Shown here: positions 10,842-30,269 of the stretch, piece after piece | Numbering within the stretch: the first letter of the stretch is position 1 | How the letters are laid out: every line of letters begins with the position of its first letter | Assembly: GCF_900102215.1 (NCBI RefSeq) | Contig: NZ_FNBG01000007.1 | Span: 62,001 to 126,000, forward strand | Source of the DNA: Fontibacillus panacisegetis | GTDB lineage: Bacteria > Bacillota > Bacilli > Paenibacillales > Paenibacillaceae | Direction of reading: 5' to 3' | DNA length: 64,000 bases | Made by a program: the position numbers and the translations under genes | The notes under the pieces: generated by a model | Told to the model about the DNA's origin: nothing | Databases searched by the model: none | The model's input: only the letters and a program-made list of their open reading frames with translations

Positions 10842-10848
10842 TTTTCAT
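10837..10848 (-). CDS. candidate 3-codon leader ORF (Met-Lys-Asn)
   Basis: ATG AAA AAC TAA on the minus strand, with GGGTGA a few bases upstream, early in the ABC-F leader. Its stop codon overlaps pairing segment 1. Very short uORFs that sense stalled ribosomes are known in front of several ABC-F resistance genes. An alternative 5-codon frame starts just upstream. Confidence 0.4.
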   Translation of the reverse strand: MKN

Positions 10849-10883
10849 CGTTCACCCATCATCCCTTCAAACAATTTGTAATT

Positions 10884-15768: not shown

Positions 15769-16605
15769 ATGCTGAGAATTAGTGATTTCTCCACACTATC
15801 ACAATTGAGTATCAAAATGCTTAGGCACTATGCTGACATTGACTTGCTTCCTCCAGGCTTCATAGATGAAAGTACTGGTTATCGATATTATTATGAAAAT
15901 CAATTAGCAATAGCTAACAAAATAAACATGCTGAAAAATATGGGGTTTAGTCTGCAATTAATCAAAAAAATGTTGTATGAATATGATGCAAATACCCATT
16001 TGATGAAGTTTTTGAGTTTACAGGAATTACAACTCCAAGAGGAAATGATCGAAAAACAAGAGAAAATACTATTAATTAGATCCATGATTAGACACTTGAA
16101 TTCTCAGAAAGAATCCTCAAAATATACAGTGACCAAAAAGAAAATCCCTCAGCGTCAAGTGATTTATCTACGTGCACAAATCAATCGATATCAGGATGAG
16201 ACTCTTTTGTGGATACAGCTCTCAACGATGGTGCACGAACAGAATATACGATTAAGCTATCCGTATTTCAGTACGACGATTTTTTATGAAGAAGATGTTC
16301 AAAATCAACATATTGATATAGAAGTCCAAAAATCCATTTCGGGGGATTATGACCATTTGCAAGCAACCAATATTAAACTTGAACAGGAGCAGACCGTAGC
16401 TTCATGCATCTATGAAGGAAATTATAACAAGCTTAGCGAAGTGAATGAAACAGTCGCTCACTGGATATTAGATAATGATTACGAGTTGTGCGGTTCCCAA
16501 TTCAATATATATCATATTTCGCCTGAAGAGGCTGATGAATCTGCTAATTTATTAACTGAGATTTGCTTTCCTATAAAGAAGAAAATCCAGGATAAAAATT
16601 ATTAG
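15769..16605 (+). CDS. MerR-family regulator with effector domain
   Basis: Transcription regulator of 278 residues. Residues 1-70 are a MerR winged helix (RISDFSTLSQLSIKMLRHYADIDLL). A coiled dimer helix follows at about 75-115, and then a GyrI/BmrR-like ligand domain. Such proteins twist long-spacer promoters into active form when a drug binds. It is the last gene of the exporter operon, and a matching 19-bp-spacer promoter lies upstream of the first gene. Confidence 0.87.
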   Translation: MLRISDFSTLSQLSIKMLRHYADIDLLPPGFIDESTGYRYYYENQLAIANKINMLKNMGFSLQLIKKMLYEYDANTHLMKFLSLQELQLQEEMIEKQEKILLIRSMIRHLNSQKESSKYTVTKKKIPQRQVIYLRAQINRYQDETLLWIQLSTMVHEQNIRLSYPYFSTTIFYEEDVQNQHIDIEVQKSISGDYDHLQATNIKLEQEQTVASCIYEGNYNKLSEVNETVAHWILDNDYELCGSQFNIYHISPEEADESANLLTEICFPIKKKIQDKNY

Positions 16606-16623: not shown

Positions 16624-16812
16624 AAAATTCCTGCAAAAGTGCATCCTTTATACAGATACTAAGATCCCTGACTAAAATTCATGTAAAACTGCATCCTTTT
16701 TGGAACAAAATTCAGAAATACGCCTGTTCCGATTGAAAAAGCTGCACTTTCGCAGGTTTTTACGAAAAGAAGTGATCTTCATGGGCTAAAGCCTGCGCTT
16801 TTGCAGGAATTT
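16624..16812. repeat. four-dyad intergenic element, copy A
   Basis: Four short TGCA-type dyads: A1 16624-16650, A2 16674-16701, A3 16735-16761 and A4 16786-16812. Centres are about 50, 60 and 51 bp apart. A1 and A2 read CTGCAAAAGTGCATCCTTT-like on the plus strand; A3 and A4 read it on the minus strand. The two halves also share AAGATC between their units, so the whole is an imperfect inverted repeat of about 190 bp. It fills the gap between the MerR gene and the next response regulator. Confidence 0.75.
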
Positions 16813-16927
16813 GCTGACGAGTGGTCACAAATAGCTGTTGCAGGTGATCCTTGCTCAGTCCAATCCTGAGTATAGATCATCTATTTTTTTGTAATATAAT
16901 AAAAGAAAACAATTCAGGTGGCTTATT

Positions 16928-17608
16928 ATGGATACTATTCTAATTATTGAAGATCACGAGGATGTTAATCTCATGCTGGGACAAGCATTAACCGATGCAG
17001 GCTATCACGTGAAATCGGCTTATTCCGGTGTGGATGGACTCCATGACATCAAGAACAATACATATGATCTGGTTCTGCTCGACATCATGCTTCCCTACAA
17101 AAGCGGTGATGAAATACTTAAGGAAGTGCGGACTTTTTCCAACGTTCCTGTCATCATCATTTCCGCAAAGGACATGGTAGGCACGAAGATTGACCTTTTG
17201 AGATTGGGAGCAGATGACTACATTACTAAACCCTTCGATTTGGGCGAGGTTGTGGCCCGTGTTGAATCTAATCTGCGGCGTTCTCATAAGCATGTACAGG
17301 TGAATCGCGTTTTACAATATAAAGATTTAACGATCGATGACACTTCAAAGCGCGTTACAATAAACGATGCTGAAATTGACCTGACAGCAAAGGAATATAT
17401 GATATTGGAGATGCTGCTAAAGAACGTCGGCAAGGTTTTTACAAAAGCCAATCTCTACGAATCTGTCTGGCAGGATGAATATCTTGGTGATGACAATGCA
17501 GTTAAGACTCATATCAGCAATCTGCGCAACAAGCTAAAGAAAGCAAACCCGACTAAGGAATATATCGAAACGGTATGGGGACTTGGCTATCGCCTGCATA
17601 AAGATTGA
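16928..17608 (+). CDS. OmpR-family response regulator
   Basis: A 226-residue response regulator with receiver acidic residues E8-D9, phospho-acceptor D52 (LVLLDIMLP), Lys in VIIISAK, and a C-terminal winged helix ending VWGLGYRLHKD. It heads an operon of regulator, ABC ATPase, permease and kinase, the layout of bacitracin/lantibiotic-response systems. It likely controls the exporter genes behind it. An AGGTGG site precedes the ATG. Confidence 0.92.
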   Translation: MDTILIIEDHEDVNLMLGQALTDAGYHVKSAYSGVDGLHDIKNNTYDLVLLDIMLPYKSGDEILKEVRTFSNVPVIIISAKDMVGTKIDLLRLGADDYITKPFDLGEVVARVESNLRRSHKHVQVNRVLQYKDLTIDDTSKRVTINDAEIDLTAKEYMILEMLLKNVGKVFTKANLYESVWQDEYLGDDNAVKTHISNLRNKLKKANPTKEYIETVWGLGYRLHKD

Positions 17609-17699
17609 ATTATCGGTTTCCTTACACTCTTTTGGCTGCCCTTAACCTTTTCTAAACCTTTAGATCCTACACTAAAGCCAGAGAGGACAGGTGAGCGAA

Positions 17700-18623
17700 A
17701 TGAAACAATATGTTTTAAAAACGAACAGCCTGACAAAAAGCTACAACGGTGCATATGCACTTCGTGATCTATCGATTGCTTTGGAGCCGGGCAAAATCTA
17801 CGGATTAATCGGACAAAATGGTGCGGGAAAATCTACTTTAATGCGGATGGTGGCCGGACTTGCTTTTCCTACCGCTGGCAGCATTGAGCTTTTTGGCCAA
17901 AGTGGAGAAAAGGACCTGCAGGCTGAAAGAAAAAGACTGGGCTGCATGATCGAGTACCCTAGCATAACCCCTAATTTGTCAGCAAAAGATAACCTCACAT
18001 TGCACCGGATTTTAAGAGGTATTCCGAGCGAAACTATCGAAAATGAGCTGCTAACATTGGTAGGCTTAAGCGACACAGGGAAAAAGAAGGCTAAAAACTT
18101 CTCGCTTGGCATGAAGCAGCGTTTAGGTATTGCCATCGCCTTGCTCGGTGATCCAGAGCTGCTGATTTTGGATGAGCCGATCAATGGACTAGACCCATTG
18201 GGTGTTGTAGAAATAAGAAATCTATTGATCAAGCTGTGCGAGGAGCGGCATATGACCATCCTCATCTCAAGCCACAACCTGCCGGAGCTTTATCAGGTTG
18301 CGACCGACTACTTAATCATCCACCAAGGCAAGCTCATGCAATCCATTACTCTTGCAGAGCTTGAAGAAAGCTGTAAGCACCATTTCCTCATTAACTGTGA
18401 TCAGCCGGAAAAGCTGGTGAGCGTGTTGGAAGTGCAGCTAGATACGATTAATTATAAGGTTATGCCAGACAAAACGGTTAAGCTATACGATTATTTGGGT
18501 GAACAGGAATTCGTGGCTAAAACCCTTTATGAAAATGGGATTGCTGTTTCGAATTTTTCTATCCAGGGAGATACGCTAGAGGACTACTTCATTTCGGTTA
18601 TAGGAGGTGGTCTGAATGGTTAA
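17700..18623 (+). CDS. ABC exporter ATPase, bacitracin/lantibiotic immunity type
   Basis: ATPase of about 307 residues similar to BcrA-type immunity proteins. Walker A is GQNGAGKST, signature LGMKQRLGIA, Walker B LLILDEPINGLDP, with switch His in SSHNLPEL. Asn and Gly after the Walker B Glu-Pro are typical of this group. GTG 17691 is an alternative start; ATG 17700 is preferred because AGGTGA lies 5 bases upstream and the resulting N-terminus starts close to YVLKTNSLTK. Its end overlaps the permease start by 8 bp. Confidence 0.87.
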   Translation: MKQYVLKTNSLTKSYNGAYALRDLSIALEPGKIYGLIGQNGAGKSTLMRMVAGLAFPTAGSIELFGQSGEKDLQAERKRLGCMIEYPSITPNLSAKDNLTLHRILRGIPSETIENELLTLVGLSDTGKKKAKNFSLGMKQRLGIAIALLGDPELLILDEPINGLDPLGVVEIRNLLIKLCEERHMTILISSHNLPELYQVATDYLIIHQGKLMQSITLAELEESCKHHFLINCDQPEKLVSVLEVQLDTINYKVMPDKTVKLYDYLGEQEFVAKTLYENGIAVSNFSIQGDTLEDYFISVIGGGLNG

Positions 18624-19413
18624 TCTGATCAGGGCTGATCTATTCAAGCTTCGCAAATCAATGGCATTTAAAATCCTAGTCGGAATCACCACCGCAAGTG
18701 CCTTGCTTATGGTGATGATGGCGTATTGGATACCACAGGGCAAGATCGAGGCCAGCATGACCGGAATCGGATTCATGTTCTCTGATGTAAACATGATCAG
18801 CATTCTTGGTGCTGTGATCGCAGGTATATTTATTTGTGGCGATTTCGATACAAAAACTATCCATGATGCTATTACAACCGGGCATAGCAGGGGTACTGTC
18901 ATCGTTAGTAAGGCCATTGTATTCGGTTGTGCCGTAGCCTTCATTCTGCTTCCTTACGCTATCATTACAGGGATTGCTCTTGGCTCCGGTTCCAAGTTTA
19001 ATATGGGCTCCGTCGCTGTAGGATTTCTGCATTTATTAACTTCTGAGGCCGGTACAGTCTTTTCTGCATCAGAGATCTGGAAGTTGCTAGCGATCATGAT
19101 GACCCTGATCATCGTATATGTGGCCCAGCTTAGTATCTGTGTACCACTTGCCTTTGTTTTAAAGAAGCCTGTTCTTGTGGTTGCTATATATTATGGGTTC
19201 TCAATTCTCACTGCGCAGTTGATGGGAATCGCTAATAGCTCCCCAATGTTCGACCGTATATTTTCCTGCACACCATACGGAGGGAATTACACCTTTTTGA
19301 CATTGGATGCGGTCGCGGGAGATTTCATCAAGGCAATAGCTGTAAGTCTAGCATTTATTATTCTGATTCTTGCTGTCACATTCGCTCTATTCAGAAAATC
19401 GGAAATGAAGTAA
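18616..19413 (+). CDS. ABC exporter permease, bacitracin/lantibiotic immunity type
   Basis: Membrane protein of 265 residues with about six helices: one near residues 17-37, a GAVIAGIFICGDF segment, and the last helix at about 235-258. It resembles ABC-2 permeases paired with BcrA-like ATPases that remove cell-wall-active peptides. The start lies inside the ATPase gene with GGAGGTGG upstream, so translation is coupled. Confidence 0.83.
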   Translation: MVNLIRADLFKLRKSMAFKILVGITTASALLMVMMAYWIPQGKIEASMTGIGFMFSDVNMISILGAVIAGIFICGDFDTKTIHDAITTGHSRGTVIVSKAIVFGCAVAFILLPYAIITGIALGSGSKFNMGSVAVGFLHLLTSEAGTVFSASEIWKLLAIMMTLIIVYVAQLSICVPLAFVLKKPVLVVAIYYGFSILTAQLMGIANSSPMFDRIFSCTPYGGNYTFLTLDAVAGDFIKAIAVSLAFIILILAVTFALFRKSEMK

Positions 19414-19422
19414 ATCGAAGGG

Positions 19423-20325
19423 TTGGTGAGGACGTTGGTCATTGCCGTTGGTTTTTTAGTCGTAGTTGTTATAGTTCTCGTTCTATACATCGCCTATCTC
19501 CAGCTGCAGCTGCGCAGTATCAACCGGCAGCTTGATAAGCGTCTGACCAGAAATACACGACAACCGATCAGTCTGGAACTCATCAACCGTGAGCTAACCC
19601 GATTAACAGCAAATATCAACAAATGCCTAAAGGCGGAGGAAAACCTCCGTCTTGATAGCATTCGGGAGGAAAAACAGTTTAAAGAAATGATCGCGAACAT
19701 CTCGCATGATCTGCGAACACCGCTTACAGCAATCAAGGGATATCAGCAGCTTATGGAAACCAACGAGCTACCCGACGAGCAGCGAAAAAAGCTGCAAATT
19801 GCCCAAAAGCATGCCAATAAGCTAGGAGCCCTGATTGAACATTTCTTCGAGTACTCCTATCTTGTCAACGCCGAACCAAAGCCTAAGCTGGAGCGTATCA
19901 ACTTGACGAACCTCGTCACGGAATGCCTCGCGGAATCTATTACCGAATTTGAAAGGAAAAATTTACAGGTACGTGTTGAGGAAGATGATTCTGTATTTGT
20001 TCTTGCCGATAAAGAAATGCTAGTAAGAATCATCCAAAACCTGATTCGGAATAGTGCAACCCATGCCGCTGGAGACCTTGAGGTACGAGTATTTACTATA
20101 CAAAATAACAATGCAGTCGTTTCATTCAGAAATCCCGTAACAAGTCCAGCTGAAATAGATATCAACCGGATTTTTGATCGTTTCTATACCGCAGATCAAT
20201 CAAGAGGCGCGACTACAGGTCTAGGCTTATCTATTGTCAGGCTGCTGACCGAGCAACTGGGCGGCAGCACCAGCGCAGCACTGCAGAACGGATGCATAGA
20301 GATTCAAGTTGAGCTTCCCACGTAA
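19423..20325 (+). CDS. sensor histidine kinase with one membrane helix
   Basis: Kinase of 300 residues. One N-terminal membrane helix (about 3-26) leads straight into a coiled stretch and the HisKA box (NISHDLRTPL, His95). The ATPase has N-box NLIRNSATH and G-box TTGLGLS. With no sensor domain outside the membrane, it probably reads the exporter or peptides at the membrane. The start is uncertain (TTG 19423, GTG 19426 or TTG 19435), all near a GAAGGG/GTGAGG stretch. It closes the operon begun by the regulator at 16.9 kb. Confidence 0.88.
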   Translation: MVRTLVIAVGFLVVVVIVLVLYIAYLQLQLRSINRQLDKRLTRNTRQPISLELINRELTRLTANINKCLKAEENLRLDSIREEKQFKEMIANISHDLRTPLTAIKGYQQLMETNELPDEQRKKLQIAQKHANKLGALIEHFFEYSYLVNAEPKPKLERINLTNLVTECLAESITEFERKNLQVRVEEDDSVFVLADKEMLVRIIQNLIRNSATHAAGDLEVRVFTIQNNNAVVSFRNPVTSPAEIDINRIFDRFYTADQSRGATTGLGLSIVRLLTEQLGGSTSAALQNGCIEIQVELPT

Positions 20326-20371
20326 AAAGACCGTCTCGCAAGTAGAAGATCTACTTCCAAGTCGGTCTTTT
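20325..20371. terminator. terminator after kinase gene
   Basis: Outer arms AAAAGACCG and CGGTCTTTT enclose an inner stem AAGTAGA/TCTACTT. It is symmetrical and lies between convergent genes. Confidence 0.8.
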
Positions 20372-20382
20372 GTGATACTTGT

Positions 20383-20601
20383 TCACTCTTTCCTCTCCTT
20401 AATCATTTCGAGGAACTCCAGAATGATATCGGAAACAGCATCTTCTTCCGACGTATGAATGAATTTGCTAACTCTCATAATATCGCCTTTAAAAAGCTCT
20501 ATGAGCTTTAATGTAGATTCCGCATCATTCTGTCTGGCCTGCTGCAGTAGTTTTAGGAACTCATCATCCGGGATAACTCTTGGATCATTTTCCGCTTCCA
20601 T
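20383..20601 (-). CDS. RsoA-like region-2 partner of a split sigma factor
   Basis: A 72-residue helical protein that resembles sigma region 1.2-2 fragments such as RsoA (YvrHa) of Bacillus subtilis: LLQQARQNDAESTLKLIELF, then an acidic stretch and IILEFLEMI. It lacks a region 4. AAGGGGTGA lies just before the ATG, which supports the start. The gene begins 49 bp inside the end of the sigma region-4 gene, so both are made together. The pair would bind RNA polymerase as one two-piece sigma factor; that role is inferred from size, order and the adjacent YvrJ-like gene. Confidence 0.7.
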   Translation of the reverse strand: MEAENDPRVIPDDEFLKLLQQARQNDAESTLKLIELFKGDIMRVSKFIHTSEEDAVSDIILEFLEMIKERKE

Positions 20602-20894
20602 TTGTTCACCCCTTGTTGACTCATATTTAGCTCAAGGGCTACTTCACGCTCCGTCTTGTCCTGCATATAAATTTTATAAATTATAGTTCGTCCTGTACTG
20701 GAAGGAAGTGCATTGATCATTTGTCTAATGACAATCTTGTTGTCAGAAGATGAAGCGAAGCTGGTTGTGGCTGGCTCGATTCCATTGAATGAACATTCCC
20801 GTCTTTTGACAACCTTGGCTTTGTACTGAACCCTCCAAGCGATTCGGTATACTTCTCTACGATATTGCTCATATGCAGTTTGCTGTTCCTTCAT
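20553..20894 (-). CDS. SigO-like sigma factor subunit (region 4)
   Basis: A 113-residue protein. The C-terminal half is a sigma-70 region-4 helix-turn-helix (ALPSSTGRTIIYKIYMQDKT, EREVALELNMSQQGVNKWK). The N-terminal part lacks a recognisable region 2, which the overlapping downstream gene seems to supply. This is the SigO/RsoA plan known from B. subtilis. A strong GGGGGAGG site lies 5 bases before the ATG. The promoter motif upstream matches that of the divergent YvrJ-like gene, so it likely drives its own expression. It is shorter than SigO (about 176 residues). Confidence 0.7.
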   Translation of the reverse strand: MKEQQTAYEQYRREVYRIAWRVQYKAKVVKRRECSFNGIEPATTSFASSSDNKIVIRQMINALPSSTGRTIIYKIYMQDKTEREVALELNMSQQGVNKWKRKMIQELSRMMSS

Positions 20895-20927
20895 AACTAC
20901 CTCCCCCTTCCATATTCATCTTCTATG

Positions 20928-20959
20928 TATAGGGAAAAAATCAAGGTAGTCATACAACC
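20928..20959 (-). promoter_or_regulatory. candidate split-sigma promoter, leftward
   Basis: On the minus strand GGTTGT (20959-20954) lies exactly 21 bases before CTATA (20932-20928), within AAATGGTTGT and CCCTATACATAG contexts. The spacing and words match the rightward copy. The predicted leader to the sigma gene is under 35 bases. Confidence 0.55.
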
Positions 20960-21004
20960 ATTTCCACTGTTATTAAACCTATAATAACATTTTTTCTAAA
21001 AAAT

Positions 21005-21036
21005 GGTTGTCATATGTAGAGTTTTTTTTCTCTATA
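21005..21036 (+). promoter_or_regulatory. candidate split-sigma promoter, rightward
   Basis: GGTTGT (21005-21010), then 21 bases and CTATA (21032-21036), the mirror of the leftward copy. Ten bases, AAATGGTTGT, are identical in both. The start codon of the YvrJ-like gene lies about 38 bp downstream. Confidence 0.55.
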
Positions 21037-21073
21037 TAGTGAAAGGAACTTTCAAAGAAAGGTGGTCACGCAC

Positions 21074-21289
21074 ATGCAGGTCACAGATATTGTATCGATG
21101 GTTGCCAATGTAGGCTTTCCCGTCACACTTTGTTTTATATTAATTAAGTACGTCCTGCAAAATGTCGACGAAAAGCTTAGCAAGATGGAAGATTCATTGC
21201 AAAACTTGGCCCAGGAGATTCAGCGACTTGATGAATCTAATACAGAAATCAAATCTACAAACCATGCCAAACAGCATCAAGCCAAATAA
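21074..21289 (+). CDS. YvrJ-family small membrane protein
   Basis: A 71-residue protein: one hydrophobic helix (about 8-27, MVANVGFPVTLCFILIKYVL), then a charged amphipathic tail. This is the YvrJ pattern; B. subtilis yvrJ is a known target of SigO/RsoA. AAAGGTGG fits the ATG at 21074 (8 bases), so the in-frame GTG 12 bp upstream is less likely. It is divergent from the split sigma genes and shares their promoter motif. Function unknown. Confidence 0.75.
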   Translation: MQVTDIVSMVANVGFPVTLCFILIKYVLQNVDEKLSKMEDSLQNLAQEIQRLDESNTEIKSTNHAKQHQAK

Positions 21290-21346
21290 TCAGTTATGTC
21301 AGAGGAGTCGCACCCTTGGATAAATTATATGACGTTATCTCTTGCT

Positions 21347-22345
21347 TTAGAACTTCTCAAAAGGATAACGTAGCCCCCATTGCGTCCTAGTCTGATCCAA
21401 CAGTCTCATAATATCAAGCGACTCCTTAAGTTTCATTACCGGACTCTCTTTAAGCCCTTCAATAAGACATCTTCCTACCTCTTCTGCTTCATAAGCGTAC
21501 CCTTCCGCCTTGCGATCATCACGGAAAATCTCTTCACCCTCGCCATATACTTGCAGAGTAGCCTTTGTACTGTTTATGAAAGAAGGAACATGAATAACAC
21601 CCTTCGTACCATGGATATGCACACCATTGCTCAGTTCAAGTCGAACCGCACCATGCAGTGACGCTGTTCTTCCTTCGCCATAATCCAGCAAAAGCGAGAA
21701 ATGTTCGTCCACTCCGGTCTCCCCGATCTGAACAGTGCTCATTATATGAGCAGGCTCCGCACCAAACAGCATGGACGCAAACGATACAGGGTAGATTCCT
21801 ATATCCAGCAAGGCACCTCCTCCAAGCTCCGGATTAAACAGTCTTCCTTGCGGGTTCCAGTCGCTGCGGAATCCAAATTCCGCTTTAATTAACTTCACTT
21901 GTCCAATTCGCCCCGATTCCAACCACTCTCTTACTTTAATAATAGGCGGTAAAAATCGTGTCCACATCGCTTCCATCAGGAACACGTTATTCTTCCTGGC
22001 AAGAGCAATCAATTCTTCAAGCTCGGCACTATTAACGGTAAAAGGTTTTTCACACAGCACCGCTTTTCCAGCACGTAAAGCCGATGCAACATTGTCTTTA
22101 TGAAAAGGATGCGGGGTTGCCACATAGACCGCTTCTACGTCTGGGTCAGCTAACAGTGCATCATAGCTGCCATAAGACCGTGGGAGGTTATATTTTGCGG
22201 CAAATTGTGCAGCGCTTTGAGAATTGCGTGATCCTACGGCCACCCCTTCACCATTGCTCACATAAGGCAAATCCTTGGCAAACTTCTCTGCGATCGTACC
22301 TGTCCCGATAATTCCCCATTTTATTTTTCGATCAGTCACAATCAT
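21347..22345 (-). CDS. Gfo/Idh/MocA-family oxidoreductase
   Basis: NAD(P)-dependent oxidoreductase of 332 residues. The Rossmann fold starts with KWGIIGTGTIAEKFA; the family's YVATPHPFH and CEKPF motifs follow, the latter with the conserved catalytic-area Lys-Pro. The C-terminal alpha/beta domain holds FGFRSDWNPQGRL. The substrate is probably a sugar or inositol derivative but cannot be set. The gene lies 36 bp after the SGNH hydrolase gene on the same strand, so they may be co-transcribed. GAGGGGC precedes the start. Confidence 0.85.
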   Translation of the reverse strand: MIVTDRKIKWGIIGTGTIAEKFAKDLPYVSNGEGVAVGSRNSQSAAQFAAKYNLPRSYGSYDALLADPDVEAVYVATPHPFHKDNVASALRAGKAVLCEKPFTVNSAELEELIALARKNNVFLMEAMWTRFLPPIIKVREWLESGRIGQVKLIKAEFGFRSDWNPQGRLFNPELGGGALLDIGIYPVSFASMLFGAEPAHIMSTVQIGETGVDEHFSLLLDYGEGRTASLHGAVRLELSNGVHIHGTKGVIHVPSFINSTKATLQVYGEGEEIFRDDRKAEGYAYEAEEVGRCLIEGLKESPVMKLKESLDIMRLLDQTRTQWGLRYPFEKF

Positions 22346-22381
22346 CTCTGCCCCTCATCCTTAAATTTATTGAAATCGAGA

Positions 22382-23008
22382 TTAAATGGCTCCTACAGCC
22401 TTTAACCATGCTTCTGCAATCAGCCCATGACCTGCTGGAGAAGGATGAACACCGTCCGGAGTCCAAAATGCAGGATCAGCTTTAGTAGACGCCTCCGCGA
22501 ACAGACCATCCAGCGGAACAAGCACAGCTCCGAATTCTCGTGCAAGCTCACGAACTACATGAATTTTCGGGTCCAAATCAGCACGCCATAATTTACGATC
22601 TTCTGGAACTGGCAGGACAAATGGCTCCATCATGATCAATTTTACGTCTAATTTATCAGTTGCACGCTGAAGCAAATCGCGATATCTAGCCTCATATTGT
22701 TCTACTGGCGTGTTCTCGTTATTATCGAATCTGCGCCAAGTGTCATTAATTCCAATCATAATGGACAGCACATTTGGTTTTAACTCCAGACAATCTTTAT
22801 CCCAGCGTTCCAGTAAATCAATTGTCCTATTGCCACCGATTCCTCGATTCAAGAAAGTAATATTTTTTTCAGGATACAAATGCCCCACTCGCGAGGCAAC
22901 CATCAAAGAATAACCTACCCCTAGCGAAGCGCCATCCTCACGGTTGCGTCCCCAATCTGTTATACTATCACCTTGAAAAAGAACCACATCATTGTCATTA
23001 AGCAACAT
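22382..23008 (-). CDS. SGNH/GDSL-family hydrolase
   Basis: Esterase/lipase-type hydrolase of 208 residues without signal peptide. Block I is FQGDSITDWG with nucleophile Ser, block II has the Gly in GIGG, block III is GINDTW with Asn, and block V is DGVHPSPAGH with the Asp-x-x-His pair. Cytoplasmic members often deacetylate sugars or xylan fragments. The oxidoreductase gene follows, which hints at sugar metabolism; that is inference. Confidence 0.87.
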   Translation of the reverse strand: MLLNDNDVVLFQGDSITDWGRNREDGASLGVGYSLMVASRVGHLYPEKNITFLNRGIGGNRTIDLLERWDKDCLELKPNVLSIMIGINDTWRRFDNNENTPVEQYEARYRDLLQRATDKLDVKLIMMEPFVLPVPEDRKLWRADLDPKIHVVRELAREFGAVLVPLDGLFAEASTKADPAFWTPDGVHPSPAGHGLIAEAWLKAVGAI

Positions 23009-23150
23009 TCTATCTTCCGCCTCCCTATTAGATTAACCTGACTATATAATTATACTTGAATATCATGTCATCCTAAATATCATCAGGATTTTCTCTATGG
23101 TATAATTTCTGTGACATATGAACATACGAAACCTAAAGCGGAGGCTAATG

Positions 23151-23660
23151 ATGCTTACATTTGAACAAAAGCTTTCTATATTTGATTCCTTTCCTCAACT
23201 GGAGCGCAGAGATGTATCACTCGGGCGAGTAAATTACCATTATGAACAAAGTGTTTATGACAAAAAAACAGTGGTCTATCGCCTTCATCCGAACGGAAAT
23301 GGATACGTCTACGCAGGATTGCTGGAAGGTTATGAAGTTGACCCAAAAGGATTCGTTAACATTCGAGATTACGATGAGGAAAAACTACGCGACCTTGTTG
23401 AAAAATCTATTTCTTCCCTATCCGTTAATGAAAATATGGAGCGTAACTCAAGGGATGCTTCTTCCGAGTCGCCACAGCCAAGTCTAAACATTCAAACACA
23501 AGGAGGCGTTTGGGTAAACGCCAACGGTGAGCAATTAACGCTTAAATATGAAGATGACCTCTGGTATATTTACTCCGGGATCAGCATTGAGATGGTGTTT
23601 GAAACTCGCGAAGAGGCTGGTGAATATTTGGCTGAAGAAGGTTTCAACCCGCAAAAATAA
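23151..23660 (+). CDS. hypothetical protein
   Basis: About 169 residues, acidic, no membrane segment or signal peptide. A GGAGG site fits ATG 23151 (or 23148) rather than the earlier in-frame ATG at 23118. The N-terminal half has regular aromatic strands (VNYHYEQSVYDKKTVVYRLH); a Ser/Asn/Gln-rich linker precedes a small C-terminal beta domain. I recognise no family. Confidence 0.7.
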   Translation: MLTFEQKLSIFDSFPQLERRDVSLGRVNYHYEQSVYDKKTVVYRLHPNGNGYVYAGLLEGYEVDPKGFVNIRDYDEEKLRDLVEKSISSLSVNENMERNSRDASSESPQPSLNIQTQGGVWVNANGEQLTLKYEDDLWYIYSGISIEMVFETREEAGEYLAEEGFNPQK

Positions 23661-23683
23661 ATTAGATGATACTTTGTACTTTA

Positions 23684-23713
23684 CGCAGTCCTGTATGTCA
23701 GGGCTGCGTTTTT
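23684..23713 (+). terminator. intrinsic terminator
   Basis: CGCAG-t-CCTG against CAGG-g-CTGCG, then five T, about 25 bp after the hypothetical gene. Confidence 0.8.
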
Positions 23714-23867
23714 CGTTTTGTCTAACCTGACATTTAAAATTTTATTTAATTTTTTAAAAAAATAATTGCATTTAGACACAAAATGTTCAATAATTGATAT
23801 AGACACAAAAGACACAAAATGTTCACAATTATCAAAAAATCATCAACAGCCAAAGGAGCTGATTCTG

Positions 23868-23984
23868 ATGTGGGAACCTGGAAGCAGCAAATACAAAAGT
23901 AATATTTTCGGTTTGTTCATTGCGCTGGGCATTTTCTACGCAGTGTTCTATATCGTCTTCATATTGTCTACAGTACAAAATTAA
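23868..23984 (+). CDS. small single-helix membrane protein, 38 residues
   Basis: The open frame extends upstream, but AAAGGAG lies 8 bases before ATG 23868. The product has a short polar N-terminus and one helix (IFGLFIALGIFYAVFYIVFI). Function unknown; the strong ribosome site and clean topology suggest it is real. Confidence 0.6.
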   Translation: MWEPGSSKYKSNIFGLFIALGIFYAVFYIVFILSTVQN

Positions 23985-24175
23985 CAACTCATTTTTGCAA
24001 CCGTTATCTTTTGAAACATACCCATAAAATAACAAATTGAGATTAGGGCTGTTCCTTGTCATGTATGACTGCGGACTGCCCTTTTTATTCGTGTTCATTC
24101 CTGAAAAACAAGGTTTACCGCTATAATGAAAAGTGACAAGCATCCTGGCTCTGTCATTAGAAAGGACGGTCTATT

Positions 24176-24742
24176 TTGAAAAACCTATTAGTTACCGGTT
24201 ATCGGGCTCATGAGCTCGGAATATATAATAATAAGCACCGTGGCATTCCATATATTCGGCAGTCTATCACCAATCGGTTAATTCCTCTAATTGAAGACGG
24301 ACTGGAATGGGTCATTACCCCTGGTCAGTATGGAGTTGATCTATGGGCTATTGAAGCTGCCATCAGCCTTAAAGAGCACTACCCCCATTTGAAATGTTCG
24401 ATCATCACTGCTTTCAGCCATCAGGAAGAGCAATGGAATGAAGAGAAGCAGCATTATTATCGGGAACTTATCAGACAAGTCGATTATTATGGTGCAGTCA
24501 GCAAGGAAAAGTATATTGGAAGCTGGCAATTTATCGCTCGTGATGAGCTTCTTTTTCGCAAAACCGAAGGTATTCTTCTGGTGTATGATGAGGATGCGGG
24601 TGAAGCCAGCCCCAAGTACTTCAAACAGCGTGCATTTAAAAAGCAAGCAAACGAACAGTATGATGTGTATACGATCGGTTCTGAAGAAATTCAATTTCTT
24701 GCGGATGAAGCTCACTCGAATTCTGAAGTATTTTATGAATGA
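24176..24742 (+). CDS. YpsA-like SLOG-family protein (DUF1273)
   Basis: A 188-residue protein of the YpsA group. It opens with LLVTGYRAHELGIY and has the SLOG features GLEWVITPGQYGVDLWA and a C-terminal GILLVYDEDAGEASPKY. SLOG proteins bind nucleotide-like ligands; YpsA homologues have been linked to cell division and stress, but the exact role is unsettled. It begins with TTG after GAAAGG. It is a single gene upstream of the phosphorylase promoter region. Confidence 0.85.
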   Translation: MKNLLVTGYRAHELGIYNNKHRGIPYIRQSITNRLIPLIEDGLEWVITPGQYGVDLWAIEAAISLKEHYPHLKCSIITAFSHQEEQWNEEKQHYYRELIRQVDYYGAVSKEKYIGSWQFIARDELLFRKTEGILLVYDEDAGEASPKYFKQRAFKKQANEQYDVYTIGSEEIQFLADEAHSNSEVFYE

Positions 24743-24765
24743 TTTGTACGAAATGAGCTGCTAAA

Positions 24766-24780
24766 TGCAAACGTTTGTCC
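24766..24780. promoter_or_regulatory. LacI-type operator O1 of phosphorylase gene
   Basis: TGCAAACGTTTGTCC, with a perfect CAAACGTTTG core. The exact reverse complement recurs at 24933-24947, 167 bp away, close to 16 helical turns. Paired operators at such a distance suit DNA looping by a LacI-family tetramer. Confidence 0.6.
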
Positions 24781-24810
24781 GATCATTATTTATTTTGTGA
24801 ACAAAAATTT

Positions 24811-24831
24811 AAAAAAACCGCAGTTTTTTTT
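24811..24831 (+). terminator. weak A/T hairpin after ypsA-like gene
   Basis: AAAAAAAC-CGCA-GTTTTTTT. The stem is nearly all A-T, so this is a tentative terminator. Confidence 0.35.
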
Positions 24832-24896
24832 AGATCTTGTCATATTTTTTTATGATTTGATAGCCAATTCTACGATTTGTGTGCTAAAATATTCCT

Positions 24897-24910
24897 AGAA
24901 ATCGCTTACA
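24897..24910 (+). promoter_or_regulatory. cre-like site (CcpA)
   Basis: AGAAATCGCTTACA matches the cre consensus TGWAANCGNTNWCA except at the first base. It lies just after an extended -10-like TGCTAAAAT (24882-24890), placing it at the likely transcription start of the phosphorylase gene, which suits catabolite repression. The AATCGCTTACA part recurs in the amylase promoter. Confidence 0.55.
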
Positions 24911-24932
24911 CATTGGTATGCTATTTTTCGAT

Positions 24933-24947
24933 GGACAAACGTTTGCA
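24933..24947. promoter_or_regulatory. LacI-type operator O2 of phosphorylase gene
   Basis: GGACAAACGTTTGCA is the exact inverse of O1. The following bases make GTTTGCACAAAT (24941-24952), also present in the amylase promoter at 60238-60249. Confidence 0.6.
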
Positions 24948-25021
24948 CAAATCTATGTTTCTTTCGGAAATGTAATGCCAATGTCGTACTAGGAAATGAT
25001 ATTGAGGAGGACTTATCTAAA

Positions 25022-26638
25022 ATGAGTGAGAAGAAACTGCCTACAGTAGCTTATTTCAGCATGGAGTACGGACTGCATTCCGATTTTAAAATGTATGCCG
25101 GGGGTCTTGGAATTTTGGCTGGTGACTACATTAAGGGTGCTAAAGATATTGAAGCACCTCTCGTAGCAATCGGTATTAAATGGAAACAAGGTTACACTGA
25201 TCAAAGAATCGATGGAAATGGTAAACCTTATGACACTTACCACAATTATGTTTACGATTTCCTCGAAGATACTGGTGTTAAAGTAACCGTAAAAGTTAGA
25301 AACTTAGATGTTATTTGTAAAGTATGGAAAACCGAACAATTTGGCAATGCGCCTCTTTATTTGCTTGATACAGATATTCCTGAGAACAGTGATACTTGGA
25401 TTACTGGTCAATTGTATGGATGGTTTGGTGAAGAGCGTATCGCACAAGAAATCGTTCTTGGTATCGGTGGCGTAAAAGCTATGCGTGCTCTGCAAATCCC
25501 AATTGACGTTTACCACTTTAATGAAGGACACGCAGCTCTTGCTGCAACTGAGTTGATTCGTGAGAAAATGTCTTCCCGCAAGACGTTTGAAGAAGCTTGG
25601 AATGAGACAAGAGAAGAAGTTGTGTTCACTACACATACACCTATTAAAGAAGGTAATGAGACTCATCCAATCGACAAACTTGAGTACATGTCTGCATTCA
25701 ACGGTCTGACTCGCGACCAAATGGAGCGTATCGGTGGAAATCCTTTCAATATGACAATTGCAGGTCTTCGCCTCTCCCGTATTTCTAACGGTGTTGCTGA
25801 GCTGCATGCTGATACATCCAATAAAATGTGGAAAGAAGTTGCCGGTCGTTCCGAAATTATCGGAATTACTAATGCGATCCACACACCAACTTGGGTGGAC
25901 GAAAGAATTACTAAAGCTTACAAAGAAAACGGCGATATTTGGGCTGTTCACAATGAAGTTAAAGGCGAGTTGATCGACTTCATCAAGGAACGTACTGGTA
26001 TTGAGCTTAACAAGGACAATCTGTTGATCGGGTTCTCCCGTCGCGCAGCTCCATACAAACGCAGTGACTTGATCTTCTCGAAGCCTGAAGTAATCGAGCC
26101 ATATTTGAAATCCGGTAAAATCCAAATCGTATTCTCCGGTAAAGCTCATCCACTTGATGACGTAGGTAAGAAAATCGTTAGCAACCTCGTTGACATGATG
26201 AAGAAATATCCGAAGAGTGTTGTTTTCCTTGAAAACTACGATATGACAATCGGTGCTCAGCTTACTCGTGGATCTGACATCTGGCTCAACAACCCGCGTA
26301 GACCGCTTGAAGCAAGTGGTACTTCCGGTATGAAGGCAGCTATGAACGGCGTTCTGAACTGCTCCGTACTTGATGGTTGGTGGCCAGAGGCTTGCATCGA
26401 CGGCGAAAACGGCTGGCAAATCGGTGATGGCTTCGAAACAACTGATTTCGAAGTATTGGACCGTCACGATAGCGATGCGTTGTACGATGTATTGCTTAAC
26501 AAAGTAGTGCCAACTTATTATGAGAACAATGCAAAATGGGTTCAAATGATGAGAAAGAGTATCGAAACAACTTCTGAGTTCTTTGCTACTAAACGTATGC
26601 TCGACGAGTACTACAACAAGATGTATATTAAAGCTTAG
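25022..26638 (+). CDS. alpha-glucan (glycogen/maltodextrin) phosphorylase, short form
   Basis: Enzyme of 538 residues, the short AgpA-like form of GT35-related phosphorylases, which release glucose-1-phosphate from alpha-1,4-glucans. The N-terminus VAYFSMEYGLHSDFKMYAGGLGILAGDY is diagnostic. A FNEGHAA segment and SGTSGMKAAMNG follow; Lys438 should hold pyridoxal phosphate. GAGGAGG precedes the ATG. Codon use favours highly expressed genes. Cytoplasmic. It likely handles maltodextrins imported after amylase action, and shares operator words with the amylase gene 35 kb away. Confidence 0.92.
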   Translation: MSEKKLPTVAYFSMEYGLHSDFKMYAGGLGILAGDYIKGAKDIEAPLVAIGIKWKQGYTDQRIDGNGKPYDTYHNYVYDFLEDTGVKVTVKVRNLDVICKVWKTEQFGNAPLYLLDTDIPENSDTWITGQLYGWFGEERIAQEIVLGIGGVKAMRALQIPIDVYHFNEGHAALAATELIREKMSSRKTFEEAWNETREEVVFTTHTPIKEGNETHPIDKLEYMSAFNGLTRDQMERIGGNPFNMTIAGLRLSRISNGVAELHADTSNKMWKEVAGRSEIIGITNAIHTPTWVDERITKAYKENGDIWAVHNEVKGELIDFIKERTGIELNKDNLLIGFSRRAAPYKRSDLIFSKPEVIEPYLKSGKIQIVFSGKAHPLDDVGKKIVSNLVDMMKKYPKSVVFLENYDMTIGAQLTRGSDIWLNNPRRPLEASGTSGMKAAMNGVLNCSVLDGWWPEACIDGENGWQIGDGFETTDFEVLDRHDSDALYDVLLNKVVPTYYENNAKWVQMMRKSIETTSEFFATKRMLDEYYNKMYIKA

Positions 26639-26658
26639 GAACTTGTCCATCTCATAAC

Positions 26659-26692
26659 AAAAGGCTGATTCCTCATCGGAATCAGCCTTTTT
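26659..26692 (+). terminator. intrinsic terminator of the phosphorylase gene
   Basis: A 14-bp stem AAAAGGCTGATTCC/GGAATCAGCCTTTT with a 5-base loop and T-run. Confidence 0.9.
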
Positions 26693-26735
26693 ATGCTGAA
26701 CAGCAAGTCTCTAAATTAATCATAAGGATTACAGC

Positions 26736-27872
26736 ATGAAAAGAACGATCCTTTTAACCATTCTGGCCTTTCTGTGTCTCATCCCATCCAGCTTTGCCGC
26801 TTCTACGGTCAAAAACTATGTATTGGTAGACACGAAGAGCAGCCAGGCATTTATTCCCGTCCGATTGCTGAGCGAATTTACGGATACTGTGGTTTCATTA
26901 AATGCCGCAGAGAAGAAAATTCAAATTACAAGAGGAGAAACCCTGCTTACCCTTTTCACGAATCAAGCTACTGCCTACAACAACGAAGAAAAGGTAACGC
27001 TCAAGCAAGTGCCTTTTGCTGAAAACGGAACTACATATGTCCCCTTGCAGTGGATTAGCGAATCACTCGGATTATCTGTCAAGTGGGATAAAGACGCCTC
27101 ATCCTTACATATTTCATACAATGATGACAGTGTATCCGTACCTTTCATTACGCGCGGAAGCATACAAGCAGCAGCTTCCCCTATAGTCAGTGAACGAAAA
27201 ACTTACAAAGTTGGCTCTAAATCATTTTCAGTTCAAAAGGTGACCATCTCTCTGCTGCATCCTAAAATTGAGCTTGACGTAGCTCTAGCAGGTAACACCA
27301 TCGGCAAGGTTGAGGACCTAAGCAGCATAGCCAAACGAAATAAAGCGATTGTAGCCATTAACGGTACATACTTTGATGCCTACACGAAAAATGATTTTAA
27401 AACACCGTACGGATATATTGTGAGCAAGGGTGAGATTAAAAAAGTAAATCCCACAGAAAACAGAACCATTTTTACCTATGATAAAAATTCGCTTGCTGCA
27501 CTAATATATGGGCAGGATTTTACGGAAAAGTATGAGCAAGGATCAATTGAAGGTGGGCTTCAGGCTGGGCCAAGATTGCTAGTCAATGGAAAAGTATCTC
27601 TCGATGTCAAAAACGAAGGCTTCCGTGATCCGAAAATTTTAACTGGCGGCGGAGCCCGAAGTGCCCTTGGAATTACACGAGACCATAAGCTGATCCTGCT
27701 TACAACGAGTGGAGCGACCATTCCGCAGTTGGCTGAAATTATGAAGCAGGCCGGAGCATATCAAGCCATGAATCTGGATGGCGGTGCATCTAGTGGACTT
27801 TACCATAATGGCAAATACCTAACGACACCTGGACGTAAAATCAGCAACGCGATTGTCGTGAAGTACCAGTAG
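26736..27872 (+). CDS. secreted phosphodiester glycosidase-like protein (NAGPA domain) with stalk domain
   Basis: A 378-residue exported protein. Signal peptide at 1-21. Residues 25-130 form a copper-amine-oxidase N-terminal-like stalk domain (FIPVRLLSEFTDTVV, YVPLQWISESLGLSV), common in Paenibacillus wall-associated proteins. The C-terminal 200 residues are a DUF2233/NAGPA domain with AINGTYFD, GGGARSALGI and NLDGGASSGLYHNG. NAGPA relatives cleave N-acetylglucosamine phosphodiesters; the substrate here is not known. AAGGA precedes the ATG. It is a single gene after a terminator. Confidence 0.85.
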   Translation: MKRTILLTILAFLCLIPSSFAASTVKNYVLVDTKSSQAFIPVRLLSEFTDTVVSLNAAEKKIQITRGETLLTLFTNQATAYNNEEKVTLKQVPFAENGTTYVPLQWISESLGLSVKWDKDASSLHISYNDDSVSVPFITRGSIQAAASPIVSERKTYKVGSKSFSVQKVTISLLHPKIELDVALAGNTIGKVEDLSSIAKRNKAIVAINGTYFDAYTKNDFKTPYGYIVSKGEIKKVNPTENRTIFTYDKNSLAALIYGQDFTEKYEQGSIEGGLQAGPRLLVNGKVSLDVKNEGFRDPKILTGGGARSALGITRDHKLILLTTSGATIPQLAEIMKQAGAYQAMNLDGGASSGLYHNGKYLTTPGRKISNAIVVKYQ

Positions 27873-27903
27873 TGTGTTAGTATGGGCGTTGGTTCAACTC
27901 AGG

Positions 27904-28092
27904 TTTAAAGCCTGCTAAAGTGCAGTTTTTTTCATCAAAATTCCGGATTTAGAGCAAAAGCCTGCTTAACTGCAGCAATTCTGGTGTATAACAGCTAAAA
28001 TCGCTTTTCACCGGGTTAAAGGATGCATTTTCGCATTAAAATTGTGCAGAGTCTGCTGGAAGTTGTAGAAAACTGCATTTATGCAGCAATTT
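27904..28092. repeat. four-dyad intergenic element, copy B
   Basis: Dyads B1 27904-27932, B2 27957-27981, B3 28017-28043 and B4 28068-28092, centres about 50, 61 and 50 bp apart. Cores are CCTGCTAAAGTGCAG, CCTGCTTAACTGCAG, TGCATTTTCGCA and CTGCATTTATGCAG. B3 and B4 read best in the orientation of A3/A4; B1 and B2 are too symmetrical to orient firmly. The copy fills the gap after the NAGPA gene. Confidence 0.7.
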
Positions 28093-28155
28093 CTCATGTA
28101 TGTTCAACCAAAATCCCATCAATAAACTAATATACCAAAATAATGGATTTTCTAT

Positions 28156-28161
28156 TATAAT
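28156..28161 (+). promoter_or_regulatory. candidate -10 box before the DUF559-like gene
   Basis: TATAAT, with a poor -35. Transcription from about 28168 would include the hairpin at 28178-28220 in a short leader. Confidence 0.35.
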
Positions 28162-28177
28162 AGAAGTATGAGACGAG

Positions 28178-28229
28178 GAACGTCCCGCTACATTCTTAAA
28201 TGAATGGAACCGGGGCGTTCTTTTATTTT
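28178..28229 (+). terminator. terminator/attenuator hairpin upstream of the DUF559-like gene
   Basis: Arms GAACGTCCCG (28178-28187) and CGGGGCGTTC (28211-28220) pair over 10 bp with one G-U, an inner CATTC/GAATG stem lies between them, and TTTTATTTT follows. The ribosome site GGAGGG comes immediately after. With the -10 box only about 20 bp upstream, it could end most transcripts before the gene. Confidence 0.6.
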
Positions 28230-28244
28230 GGAGGGATGTTAACA

Positions 28245-28913
28245 ATGAACTTTGAGGATTCACATGATGCATTTATCCAGTACCATTTGATGAAAAGAAC
28301 GGGGGAACGGAGAGGTCGTTTAGGACGGGGACATCGGGAGGCTGAGAAGTTGTTTTGTCAGAATGTATGGTGGCCCCTTCGTGGTAACTTCGATGGCTTA
28401 CACCCTGAATTTGAGGTGCTCGATTGGCGAGGCATGTCCTATTTTTGTGATTTTGTCTGGCTGAAACAACCCCTAAAACTGGTTATTGAAATCAAAGGAT
28501 TTGGCCCGCATGTTCGGGATATGGATCGGCAAAAATACTGCAACGAGCTTAATCGTGAAACCTTTTTATCCTCCATGGGCTATCAGGTGATTTCATTCGC
28601 TTACGACGACGTTGCGCATCGGCCGGAGATTTGTATCACGCTTCTGCGTATGGTACTTGGTCGCTTTCAATCGTCCTCTTCACCTATCAGTCTAGAAAGT
28701 TTAATAGAACGAGAGATTATCCGACTTGCATATACACTATCCCGCCCATTACGTCCCATCGATGTAAAGACTCACTTGGATATCAATCATCGTACTGCCG
28801 TTCGAACACTACAATCTCTCGCGTCAAAAGGAATCTTCTCTTCGACACCTGGTATAAAAGGCAAACATGTTGTCCGCTATGAGCTTCAGCAATGTGCGTT
28901 ACAACTGCTGTAA
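28245..28913 (+). CDS. DUF559/Vsr-like nuclease-fold protein with C-terminal winged helix
   Basis: A 222-residue protein. The middle region resembles the DUF559 (very-short-patch-repair-like) endonuclease fold: CDFVWLKQPLKLVIEIKGFG gives an Asp and Glu-x-Lys metal site, and a YQVISFAYDDV strand follows. Residues 160-222 look like a winged helix (LSRPLRPIDVKTHLDINHRTA). GGAGGG with 9-base spacing sets the ATG at 28245. Function is unknown; DNA cleavage or a DNA-binding regulator both fit. It is flanked by two copies of the four-dyad repeat. Confidence 0.7.
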   Translation: MNFEDSHDAFIQYHLMKRTGERRGRLGRGHREAEKLFCQNVWWPLRGNFDGLHPEFEVLDWRGMSYFCDFVWLKQPLKLVIEIKGFGPHVRDMDRQKYCNELNRETFLSSMGYQVISFAYDDVAHRPEICITLLRMVLGRFQSSSSPISLESLIEREIIRLAYTLSRPLRPIDVKTHLDINHRTAVRTLQSLASKGIFSSTPGIKGKHVVRYELQQCALQLL

Positions 28914-28959
28914 TGAGTAAATTGACCGTGTGCTACAAAAAATCCGGATAGCTACTCCC

Positions 28960-29146
28960 AAAAACTGCAGAAAATACATCTTTTGCTCCATTCATATCAT
29001 CGTCAATCTAAATTGCTGCAAAAGTGCATCTTTCAACTTATAAATTTTAGATTCCACACAAAATAAAGCAAAAAGCCTGCACTTTCGCAGGTTTTTTGCT
29101 TTATTCGACTATCTTTAGTTAAAAAAAATGTACTTTTGCACGTTTT
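28960..29146. repeat. four-dyad intergenic element, copy C
   Basis: Dyads C1 28960-28984, C2 29012-29034, C3 29070-29098 and C4 29121-29146, centres about 50, 61 and 51 bp apart. C1 and C2 match the plus-strand unit (C2 reads CTGCAAAAGTGCATCTTT); C3 and C4 match its complement (C3 reads CTGCACTTTCGCAGGTTTTT, nearly identical to A3). The same two-plus-two inverted order as copy A. Confidence 0.75.
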
Positions 29147-29193
29147 TGTCATTCGCCACCAAACTGGTGACTAGAGGATCAGAGTTTGGGGCA

Positions 29194-30180
29194 CTACCGC
29201 AGATCTGCCGGATATTCAACTCCGATCTGACGTCTGGCTTCTTCCATGATTTCAGCCACAACGAGGGAGCTAGCGTGCGAATTCACACTGCACTCTCTTT
29301 GTCCTGATTGCACTAACTCAATAAACTCTCTCGCTTCATAAAACATGGATTCCTGCATTTGCGGCTGTCTCAAATCCTCAATCGTCCCATCTCGATAATA
29401 GATTTTGACATCGTATGGCTGATTTATCTTGTCAATAACAAGCGTTCCGTTCTCACCTTGAATTTCAGCTGGGAGGTAGGAATCGGATATTTTGGAGTAC
29501 ATAACAATAGCGTCCATATCCTCATATCGCATGATGATACTACCCTCCCCATCAACGCCTGATGAGAGCTTAATTCCAGTCGCCTGAATTGACTCCGGTC
29601 TACCGAATAATGTTACCATCGGATACAGACAATATGTACCCAAATCCATTAGCGCACCATTTGAAAATGTAGGATTAAATGCATTCAACACAGTACCTTC
29701 AAGAAAAGCATCATAACGTGATGAGTATTGACAGTAGCTTGCAAAATACCGTCTAATTCTTCCTAATTTGTACAGATTGTTTTTGATCACACGAAAATTC
29801 GGCATAAGCGTGGATTTCATAGCTTCCATAAGCAGCACATTATTCGCTTTTGCCGCTTCGATCATTTTCTTGGTTTCGAATACATTCGAACCAATTGGCT
29901 TTTCACATAAAACATGCTTACCATGATTCATACAAATGATAGCTTGTTCCATATGAAAGGAATTCGGACTAGCGATATACACAGCGTCTACCTTGTCGCT
30001 TGACACCATTTCCTCCAAATTCGTATATACATCAACATCATGATATTTGGCAGCAAAATCCTGACCTTTCTCTTTTGTTCGAGAGTATATTGCTGTCAAA
30101 GTAAATTGCTCTGTCTCCTCCGCAGCCTGAATAAAGCGTTCCGTGATCCAATTCGTTCCGATAATTCCGAATCGTAGCAC
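29194..30180 (-). CDS. Gfo/Idh/MocA-family oxidoreductase
   Basis: NAD(P)-dependent dehydrogenase of about 328 residues. The Rossmann motif LRFGIIGTNWITERF starts the protein; YIASPNSFH and CEKPIGSN are family motifs, and a conserved GTYCLYPM segment lies in the substrate domain. Two starts compete: TTG 30204, with poor ribosome site, and GTG 30180, with GAAGGGG 11 bases upstream. It is only distantly like the oxidoreductase at 21.3 kb. Substrate unknown. Confidence 0.85.
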   Translation of the reverse strand: MLRFGIIGTNWITERFIQAAEETEQFTLTAIYSRTKEKGQDFAAKYHDVDVYTNLEEMVSSDKVDAVYIASPNSFHMEQAIICMNHGKHVLCEKPIGSNVFETKKMIEAAKANNVLLMEAMKSTLMPNFRVIKNNLYKLGRIRRYFASYCQYSSRYDAFLEGTVLNAFNPTFSNGALMDLGTYCLYPMVTLFGRPESIQATGIKLSSGVDGEGSIIMRYEDMDAIVMYSKISDSYLPAEIQGENGTLVIDKINQPYDVKIYYRDGTIEDLRQPQMQESMFYEAREFIELVQSGQRECSVNSHASSLVVAEIMEEARRQIGVEYPADLR

Positions 30181-30269
30181 TACCGACTCAACCCCTTCAC
30201 TCAATTTCTTTCTTCTCTTTATAGTATTTTCTCTTAAATGACATCATATGTCCACTTCTCAATGTAAAT

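Follow-up and report, generated by a model that had tools for sequence, protein, structure and literature searches.

Repetitive extragenic palindromic (REP) sequences and REPINs (REP doublets forming hairpins), with their REP-associated tyrosine transposases (RAYTs), serve as the model for repeats that are spread over a chromosome and linked to a single enzyme. In this study, a 64,000-nucleotide stretch of Fontibacillus panacisegetis, a member of the Paenibacillaceae (contig NZ_FNBG01000007.1, positions 62,001 to 126,000; the window), was found to carry three copies of a 190-bp intergenic module of four regularly spaced dyads, and a gene for a predicted small nuclease with a C-terminal winged helix lies between two of these copies. 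The best reading of our analysis is that this may be a REP/RAYT-like system built on an unrelated nuclease. The module would be a four-site DNA target recognised by a family of small PD-(D/E)XK-winged-helix nucleases seen for the most part in Paenibacillaceae, and the nuclease probably spread the 190-bp repeat.

As in REP/RAYT systems, the repeat is palindromic, intergenic and of high copy number, and the enzyme gene adjoins its own repeat. Repeat and enzyme co-evolve in both, and the presence of the repeat follows that of the enzyme (available text of PMC2817692 and PMC8049555). The RAYT enzyme is a Y1/HUH transposase (PF01797), whereas the protein described here is a PD-(D/E)XK-winged-helix protein that matches DUF559 and not Y1. 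Its repeat, unlike the REP unit, is a four-dyad module of 190 bp with fixed geometry. A RAYT gene has an inverted repeat on either side, and the REP palindrome is kept by complementary changes (both in the accessible text of PMC2817692). In contrast, our module lies mainly downstream of the gene (four-unit geometry at z > 3.5 in the near-downstream flank of 46 of 74 loci and the near-upstream flank of 1 of 80), although the window itself is two-sided (copies B and C), and the halves of its units do not covary. The GTAG/CGTC tag at one end of the REP palindrome (PMC3733652, in the text available) is absent from the unit consensus of three genomes, which covers the TGCA class only. The earlier note on this DNA had suggested looking for a nearby RAYT-type transposase; the F. 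panacisegetis genome holds seven Y1 matches, none of which has a module beside it in its flanks (best 18–22 of 32 core letters). Because the comparison fails in enzyme class, two-sided flanking and covariation, the system is not a REP/RAYT member.

Searches on the repeat and on DUF559 in open PubMed Central text, including that of PMC2817692, PMC1189080 and PMC8049555, yielded no description of the system. Whether the locus represents an undescribed class of repeat-plus-enzyme system seems to us an even question. Such a class would combine a TnsA-like nuclease, a winged helix reading a phase-locked four-dyad module, several orthogonal nuclease-module versions per genome, and copying of the module without an HUH, DDE or serine/tyrosine recombinase of its own. 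The pairing of enzyme versions with site versions suggests a new kind of enzyme-plus-repeat system. If this is true, an independent system has arisen in another bacterial family from a restriction-type nuclease and a rigid multi-site geometry, and such pairs have evolved more than once. The system would also offer a code between winged helix and site that can be tested where different pairs share a genome, and it would explain intergenic dyads that number in the hundreds in Paenibacillaceae genomes.

Four-dyad modules in the window and in related genomes

Three four-dyad copies were confirmed in the window, with spacings measured between centred cores: copy A at 16624..16813 (50/61/51), copy B at 27905..28093 (50/61/50) and copy C at 28959..29147 (51/61/51), none with an assigned strand. 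Copy B is upstream of the nuclease gene. Copy C starts 45 bp past its stop codon, on the side that is usual in relatives. With up to one mismatch, CTGCA-N4-TGCAG occurs 11 times in the window, eight of these inside copies A–C; 100 shuffles of the window gave a mean of 2.0 and a maximum of 7. Composite four-unit scores were 77, 66 and 65.5 for A, B and C. They come from 464 kb of sequence, made up of the window and 20 systematic stretches of the genome, on all of which the scoring matrix had also been trained; Markov resampling of this sequence gave about 28 at best. Units 1 and 2 of a module point one way and units 3 and 4 the opposite way (->-> <-<-). The earlier note had described three copies of four dyads each, at near-constant spacing and, in A and C, with two units on each strand, and these coordinates, counts and scores bear it out. 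No copy overlaps a listed open reading frame (ORF) of at least 90 aa.

Allowing one mismatch at most, the dyad occurs 696 times in the whole F. panacisegetis genome and its reversed control 41 times. All inter-dyad distances listed with a count of at least two in the 464 kb, at the same stringency, were 50–51, 61–62, 111–113 or 161–164, and no distance recurred in the Markov-resampled control. Thirteen full modules scoring above 65 were found in the 464 kb, about one per 36 kb; the window accounts for three of them, and the transposable element considered below for three or more. In ten modules (A, B, C and seven hand-picked from the four-unit scan) the centred spacings were 50–51/61–62/50–51. 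The earlier note had made its pattern depend on further four-unit copies and on a kept spacing, and both were found.

Relatives, soil bacteria allied to Paenibacillus that are cited here by our own genome (G) and locus (L) numbers, were scanned with an exact three-unit pattern of TGCA type (37–40 and 48–51 bases between cores). It was present in 45 of 295 genomes of the family, spanning 12 of 19 genera, and its reversed control matched in none of the 295. Forward and reverse matches numbered 94/95 in G253 and 49/36 in F. panacisegetis, and matches on the two strands were offset by about 51 bp, as expected for a symmetric four-unit module. Dispersed modules number from tens to probably more than 100 per genome. 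In G144 (C18:906782-907343; L233) three modules stand in tandem with a period of about 216–221 bp.

The adjoining gene for a predicted nuclease

The gene between copies B and C (28200..28913, + strand) was overlooked in the first reading and is likely the module partner. Its conserved part was translated from 28245. The product is DUF559-like, with a TnsA-like fold: Pfam DUF559 (PF04480) matched it at E 2e-5, above the family cut-off, and matched 10 of 15 aligned family members at E <= 0.01. No repeat partner for DUF559 turned up in literature searches that included its name. Two alignments were used, one of the window protein with 14 of 30 loci and one with 59 of 80 loci. D69, E82 and K84 were invariant in 60 of 60 aligned sequences. 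An AlphaFold model built from an alignment (mean predicted local distance difference test score, pLDDT, 84) was used instead of a single-sequence model (pLDDT 36). It has a nuclease-type core with strands at residues 52–59, 65–74 and 77–84, and a winged helix after this core. With a catalytic D...ExK on this core, the modelled protein is a predicted PD-(D/E)XK nuclease.

The top match of the model in the PDB was TnsA of Tn7 (E 5e-4, probability 1.00, TM-score 0.27 over the chain), which likewise joins a PD-(D/E)XK domain to a C-terminal winged helix; the R2 retrotransposon nuclease and the Bax1 nuclease also matched. The ends of Tn7 are bound by TnsB, whereas the motif described here tracks the winged helix of the nuclease itself. 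In Tn7-like elements TnsB and TnsC are encoded next to TnsA; the nuclease gene of the window sits between a phosphodiester glycosidase gene upstream and a gene downstream (29194-30204) that looks oxidoreductase-like by eye.

The presence of the module follows that of the nuclease. Among the 295 genomes, 45 have both the nuclease (E <= 1e-30) and the TGCA pattern, 156 the nuclease alone, 94 neither and none the pattern alone (Fisher p = 9.5e-9). The pattern occurs in 26 of 41 genomes with the closest nucleases (E <= 1e-100) and in 19 of 254 others (p = 4e-15). Both p-values overstate independence because the genomes are related.

The same tie was seen at the level of single loci, for which the best 80 of 555 confirmed relatives were used; these come from Paenibacillus, Cohnella, Saccharibacillus and others, and lean to the clade of the window. 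A spacing scan without a preset motif over 4256 cells chose the 49–53/58–66 box in 34 of 80 loci, where about one would be expected if all cells were equal. The canonical box beat 40 control boxes of equal size in 46 of 80 loci (expected 2). The near-downstream enrichment given above is not repeated in four farther flank bins, where z > 3.5 was reached in 2/80, 1/80, 2/72 and 1/69 loci. In the 40 loci with z > 3.5 the first spacing was 50–51 in 37 and the third 50–51 in 38, and the middle spacing was 60–63, being 61 in 26. Twelve further loci came from the phylum search, two more from F. panacisegetis included, and five of them had z > 3.5. At a second nuclease paralogue of F. panacisegetis (L244; G000:C60:49217-49870) the flank holds a module of another motif, spaced 51/63/51 (z 4.9).

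One to eight matches to the nuclease family (E <= 1e-20) were detected in 31 of 40 genomes of the genus sampled. In a phylum-wide sample, 6 of 398 genomes had the nuclease at E <= 1e-12, five of them from the same family (F. panacisegetis included) and one from another. The latter, G419, has a 1.6-Mb genome, and no module was found beside its homologue (L236), which could reflect transfer or contamination. In a search for carriage on mobile elements, the nuclease matched no phage record and one plasmid record. PADLOC defence proteins did not match the window protein or L120; L125 gave three weak matches (E 8e-4 to 0.017) in the winged-helix part.

Dyad sequence, winged helix and the form of the site

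The modules of other nucleases have different dyads, which include TAACTGGA-N5-TCCAGTTA, TGTAC types and types with TTACCGTTA, among others. Across 39 genomes of the genus we counted a second dyad class, TAACNGKA-N5-TMCNGTTA. Matches exceeded the control in G253 (492 vs 80), G285 (371 vs 71) and G181 (349 vs 97). The class was in excess in 13 of 28 nuclease-bearing genomes and in none of 11 without the nuclease at E <= 1e-30, in which match/control ratios were 0.44–0.81 (Mann-Whitney p = 4e-4). The few second-class places listed, in G152 and G233, are spaced 51/62/51–52. The earlier note had proposed selection on geometry, and a spacing kept across motif classes and genera argues for it. G253 has both classes in excess together with three nuclease matches (E <= 1e-30), and Cohnella sp. 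OV330 carries two paralogues (L147 and L170) with differing motifs.

Protein distance and motif distance were correlated (Mantel r = 0.75) over 39 of the 40 loci, one being left out here and in the spacer controls, as its protein is a fragment. The partial r for the motif was 0.52 for the winged helix and 0.25 for the nuclease domain (both p < 0.001). With plain identity in the same modules, units correlated with the protein at r 0.71 and spacers at r 0.42; for pairs with spacer identity below 0.55 the values were 0.68 and 0.20. Since spacers correlate less than units, the correlation is partly, not mostly, shared ancestry. In all three genomes tested, gene-adjacent units were closer to the dispersed units of their own genome than to those of two others, with a small margin in two cases. 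Motif and protein co-vary: the dyad sequence follows the nuclease, and its winged helix above all, whereas the geometry is constant.

The earlier note had also offered a folded RNA with four stems, and the palindromic units do lie 3' of the nuclease gene, the first beginning a median of 47 bp past the stop codon (39 loci; range -3 to 598). A guide-type or structural four-stem RNA used by the nuclease, as in TnpB/IscB, might look like this. In 40 loci, however, pairing between the two halves of one unit (0.635) was not better than pairing of a half with one from a sister unit (0.647; Wilcoxon p = 0.14); 914 of 1440 positions paired within units, against 931.7 expected from swapped halves. Ten F. 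panacisegetis modules likewise showed no excess of same-unit pairing. Because the unit halves do not covary, the dyads look like DNA sites and not RNA stems, and the half-swap test supports neither RNA hairpins nor cruciforms. The four units of a module are alike and their sequence tracks the winged helix, which also speaks against an RNA, and Rfam had no match at copies A–C at gathering thresholds. OMEGA systems (IscB/TnpB) pair a RuvC-type nuclease with a structured RNA, whereas here the model is of PD-(D/E)XK type and the halves lack covariation, which places the locus outside that class. We consider an RNA function highly improbable.

The remaining suggestion of the earlier note on function, protein binding on one face, would fit spacings resembling whole turns and halves that do not covary. 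Under the reading that we prefer, the winged helices of several nuclease molecules would dock on the four dyads from one side of DNA that is bent or wrapped. With about 5, 6 and 5 helical turns between them, the sites would face roughly the same way, and the turns would be exact at a helical repeat near 10.2 bp, such as that of wrapped DNA. The ->-> <-<- order would yield a symmetric complex, with the catalytic domains brought to the module. Cutting by the nuclease domain followed by repair is a likely copying route; the nuclease with host repair or other helpers may have spread the module, a non-autonomous repeat, in the way that REPINs are spread by RAYTs. Dyads and spacing would stay under selection because the protein reads them. 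Binding, cleavage and spread caused by the nuclease are what we infer from these patterns.

Apparent copying, loss and conservation of the module

The likely unit of copying was examined in the related genomes G281 and G248. In a boundary alignment, 27 of 32 chosen copies passed a score and length filter, and in these dyad-aligned copies information falls to near background about 10 bp beyond the outer cores. Spacers are 49% identical pairwise and flanks 26%, and the module consensus is a long imperfect inverted repeat. One G281 module used within a query gave full-length module matches at 28 places in G248 and G243 (a manual count from 94 matches), with borders agreeing within a few bases. 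Because the ends are sharp and the borders agree, copying in this group appears to act on the 190-bp module as such. With hundreds of dyads per genome and sharp ends in one species group, the REP/BIME-like (bacterial interspersed mosaic element) dispersed unit of the earlier note gains support, and its interpretation as a whole is partly supported. A second repeat of about 246 bp (L262:1559-1808, G281) has many matches in G243 and G248; it has sharp borders and is absent from the orthologous place in G248.

The module could also be an ordinary miniature inverted-repeat transposable element (MITE), or another passively amplified repeat, with an incidental link to the nuclease. Like MITEs and the BOX and RUP elements of pneumococcus (PMC3049150, in the text available), it is short, non-coding and dispersed. 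A recent MITE of F. panacisegetis (L074-L103, e.g., G000:C27:77700-78400) does carry the four-dyad module as cargo at 40 scored places, query included, with 91–96% identity; its size of about 460 bp and its ends, with the terminal repeat AAGRGGCTGTCCCAAAAGT, were read by eye. A G253 subfamily and the G028 copies also share longer flanks. Copies A, B and C, however, lie outside this MITE and all three lack its ends, and the G281/G248 copies share nothing beyond their outer dyads. We found no terminal inverted repeat apart from the mutually inverted outer dyads, which form the ends of the module; no target duplication can be read for it, because no empty site was found at the single locus where one was sought. 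Unlike MITEs, BOX and RUP, it has four internal sites at fixed spacing and is tied to a nuclease gene, and motif and protein match. The near-downstream enrichment largely contradicts a passive repeat, unless the downstream module is an independent operator. We regard this explanation as very unlikely.

Eight modules were found at orthologous sites in G281 and G248 (24 and 16 modules fetched), and one further locus was followed. At the eight loci substitutions amounted to 2.8% in cores (a biased figure, because loci were chosen by exact core matches), 7.2% at other unit positions, 12.4% in spacers and 18% in flanks. The difference between non-core unit positions (31/433) and spacers (97/782) was significant (p = 0.0045), so dyads change more slowly than spacers. 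One of the eight lacks one unit in G248. In 16 hand-picked pairs of gene-adjacent modules, some orthologous, units were more alike than spacers in 16 of 16, a result that is only supportive.

These orthologous modules also favour the main rival, in which the winged-helix protein organises the chromosome or regulates genes, the modules are fixed sites of benefit to the host (wrapping, nucleoid, gene ends), and their dispersal is old and not driven by the nuclease. Slower change of dyads than of spacers and spacings close to whole helical turns are further points in its favour. In addition, the flanking genes are tandem or convergent at 37 of 40 G281/G248 modules and divergent at 3; the ORF model behind these figures is crude and has 10 of the 40 partly overlying an ORF, and the eight orthologous pairs are counted twice. 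Yet the catalytic residues are invariant in the 60 sequences, and in one species group the sharp ends and related spacers of a discrete 190-bp module give it the look of a copied unit. Paralogues with differing motifs in one genome, as in Cohnella sp. OV330, would be odd for a housekeeping protein. We consider a chromosome-organising role unlikely, though it is the most serious of the rivals.

Several observations weigh against our preferred reading, which we still hold to be probable. The eight modules common to G281 and G248 are stable. At the further locus, 109 bp between units 2 and 4 are missing from G248 and only a remnant is left in G243, which fits loss and not insertion, and no clean empty site or target-site duplication was found at that locus across the three genomes. 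Recent spread is not seen in F. panacisegetis, because its copies outside the MITE have no visible spacer similarity; the 40 scored places sit in a separate element with its own ends. The strict TGCA pattern is missing from 15 of the 41 genomes with the closest nucleases and from 156 of all 201 nuclease-bearing genomes, which other motif classes explain only in part; 15 of the 28 nuclease-bearing genomes of the genus lack an excess of the second class. In two of the 94 genomes counted as nuclease-free, G025 and G038, a profile search found a diverged relative. At 34 of the 80 nuclease loci, at least one of the 40 control geometries did as well or better. Shared ancestry of a gene and its neighbouring module accounts for part of the correlation between motif and protein, as the spacer controls show. 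The similarity to TnsA is weak on the scores given above, and the winged-helix part matches MarR-type proteins.

Copy A lies away from the nuclease gene, between a gene for a MerR-type regulator (15769-16605) and a gene (16928-17608) resembling a response regulator by eye. Elsewhere in the window, Rfam matched only the small RNA ncr1575 (10677-10880, - strand) and a thiamine pyrophosphate (TPP) riboswitch (41106-41209, - strand).

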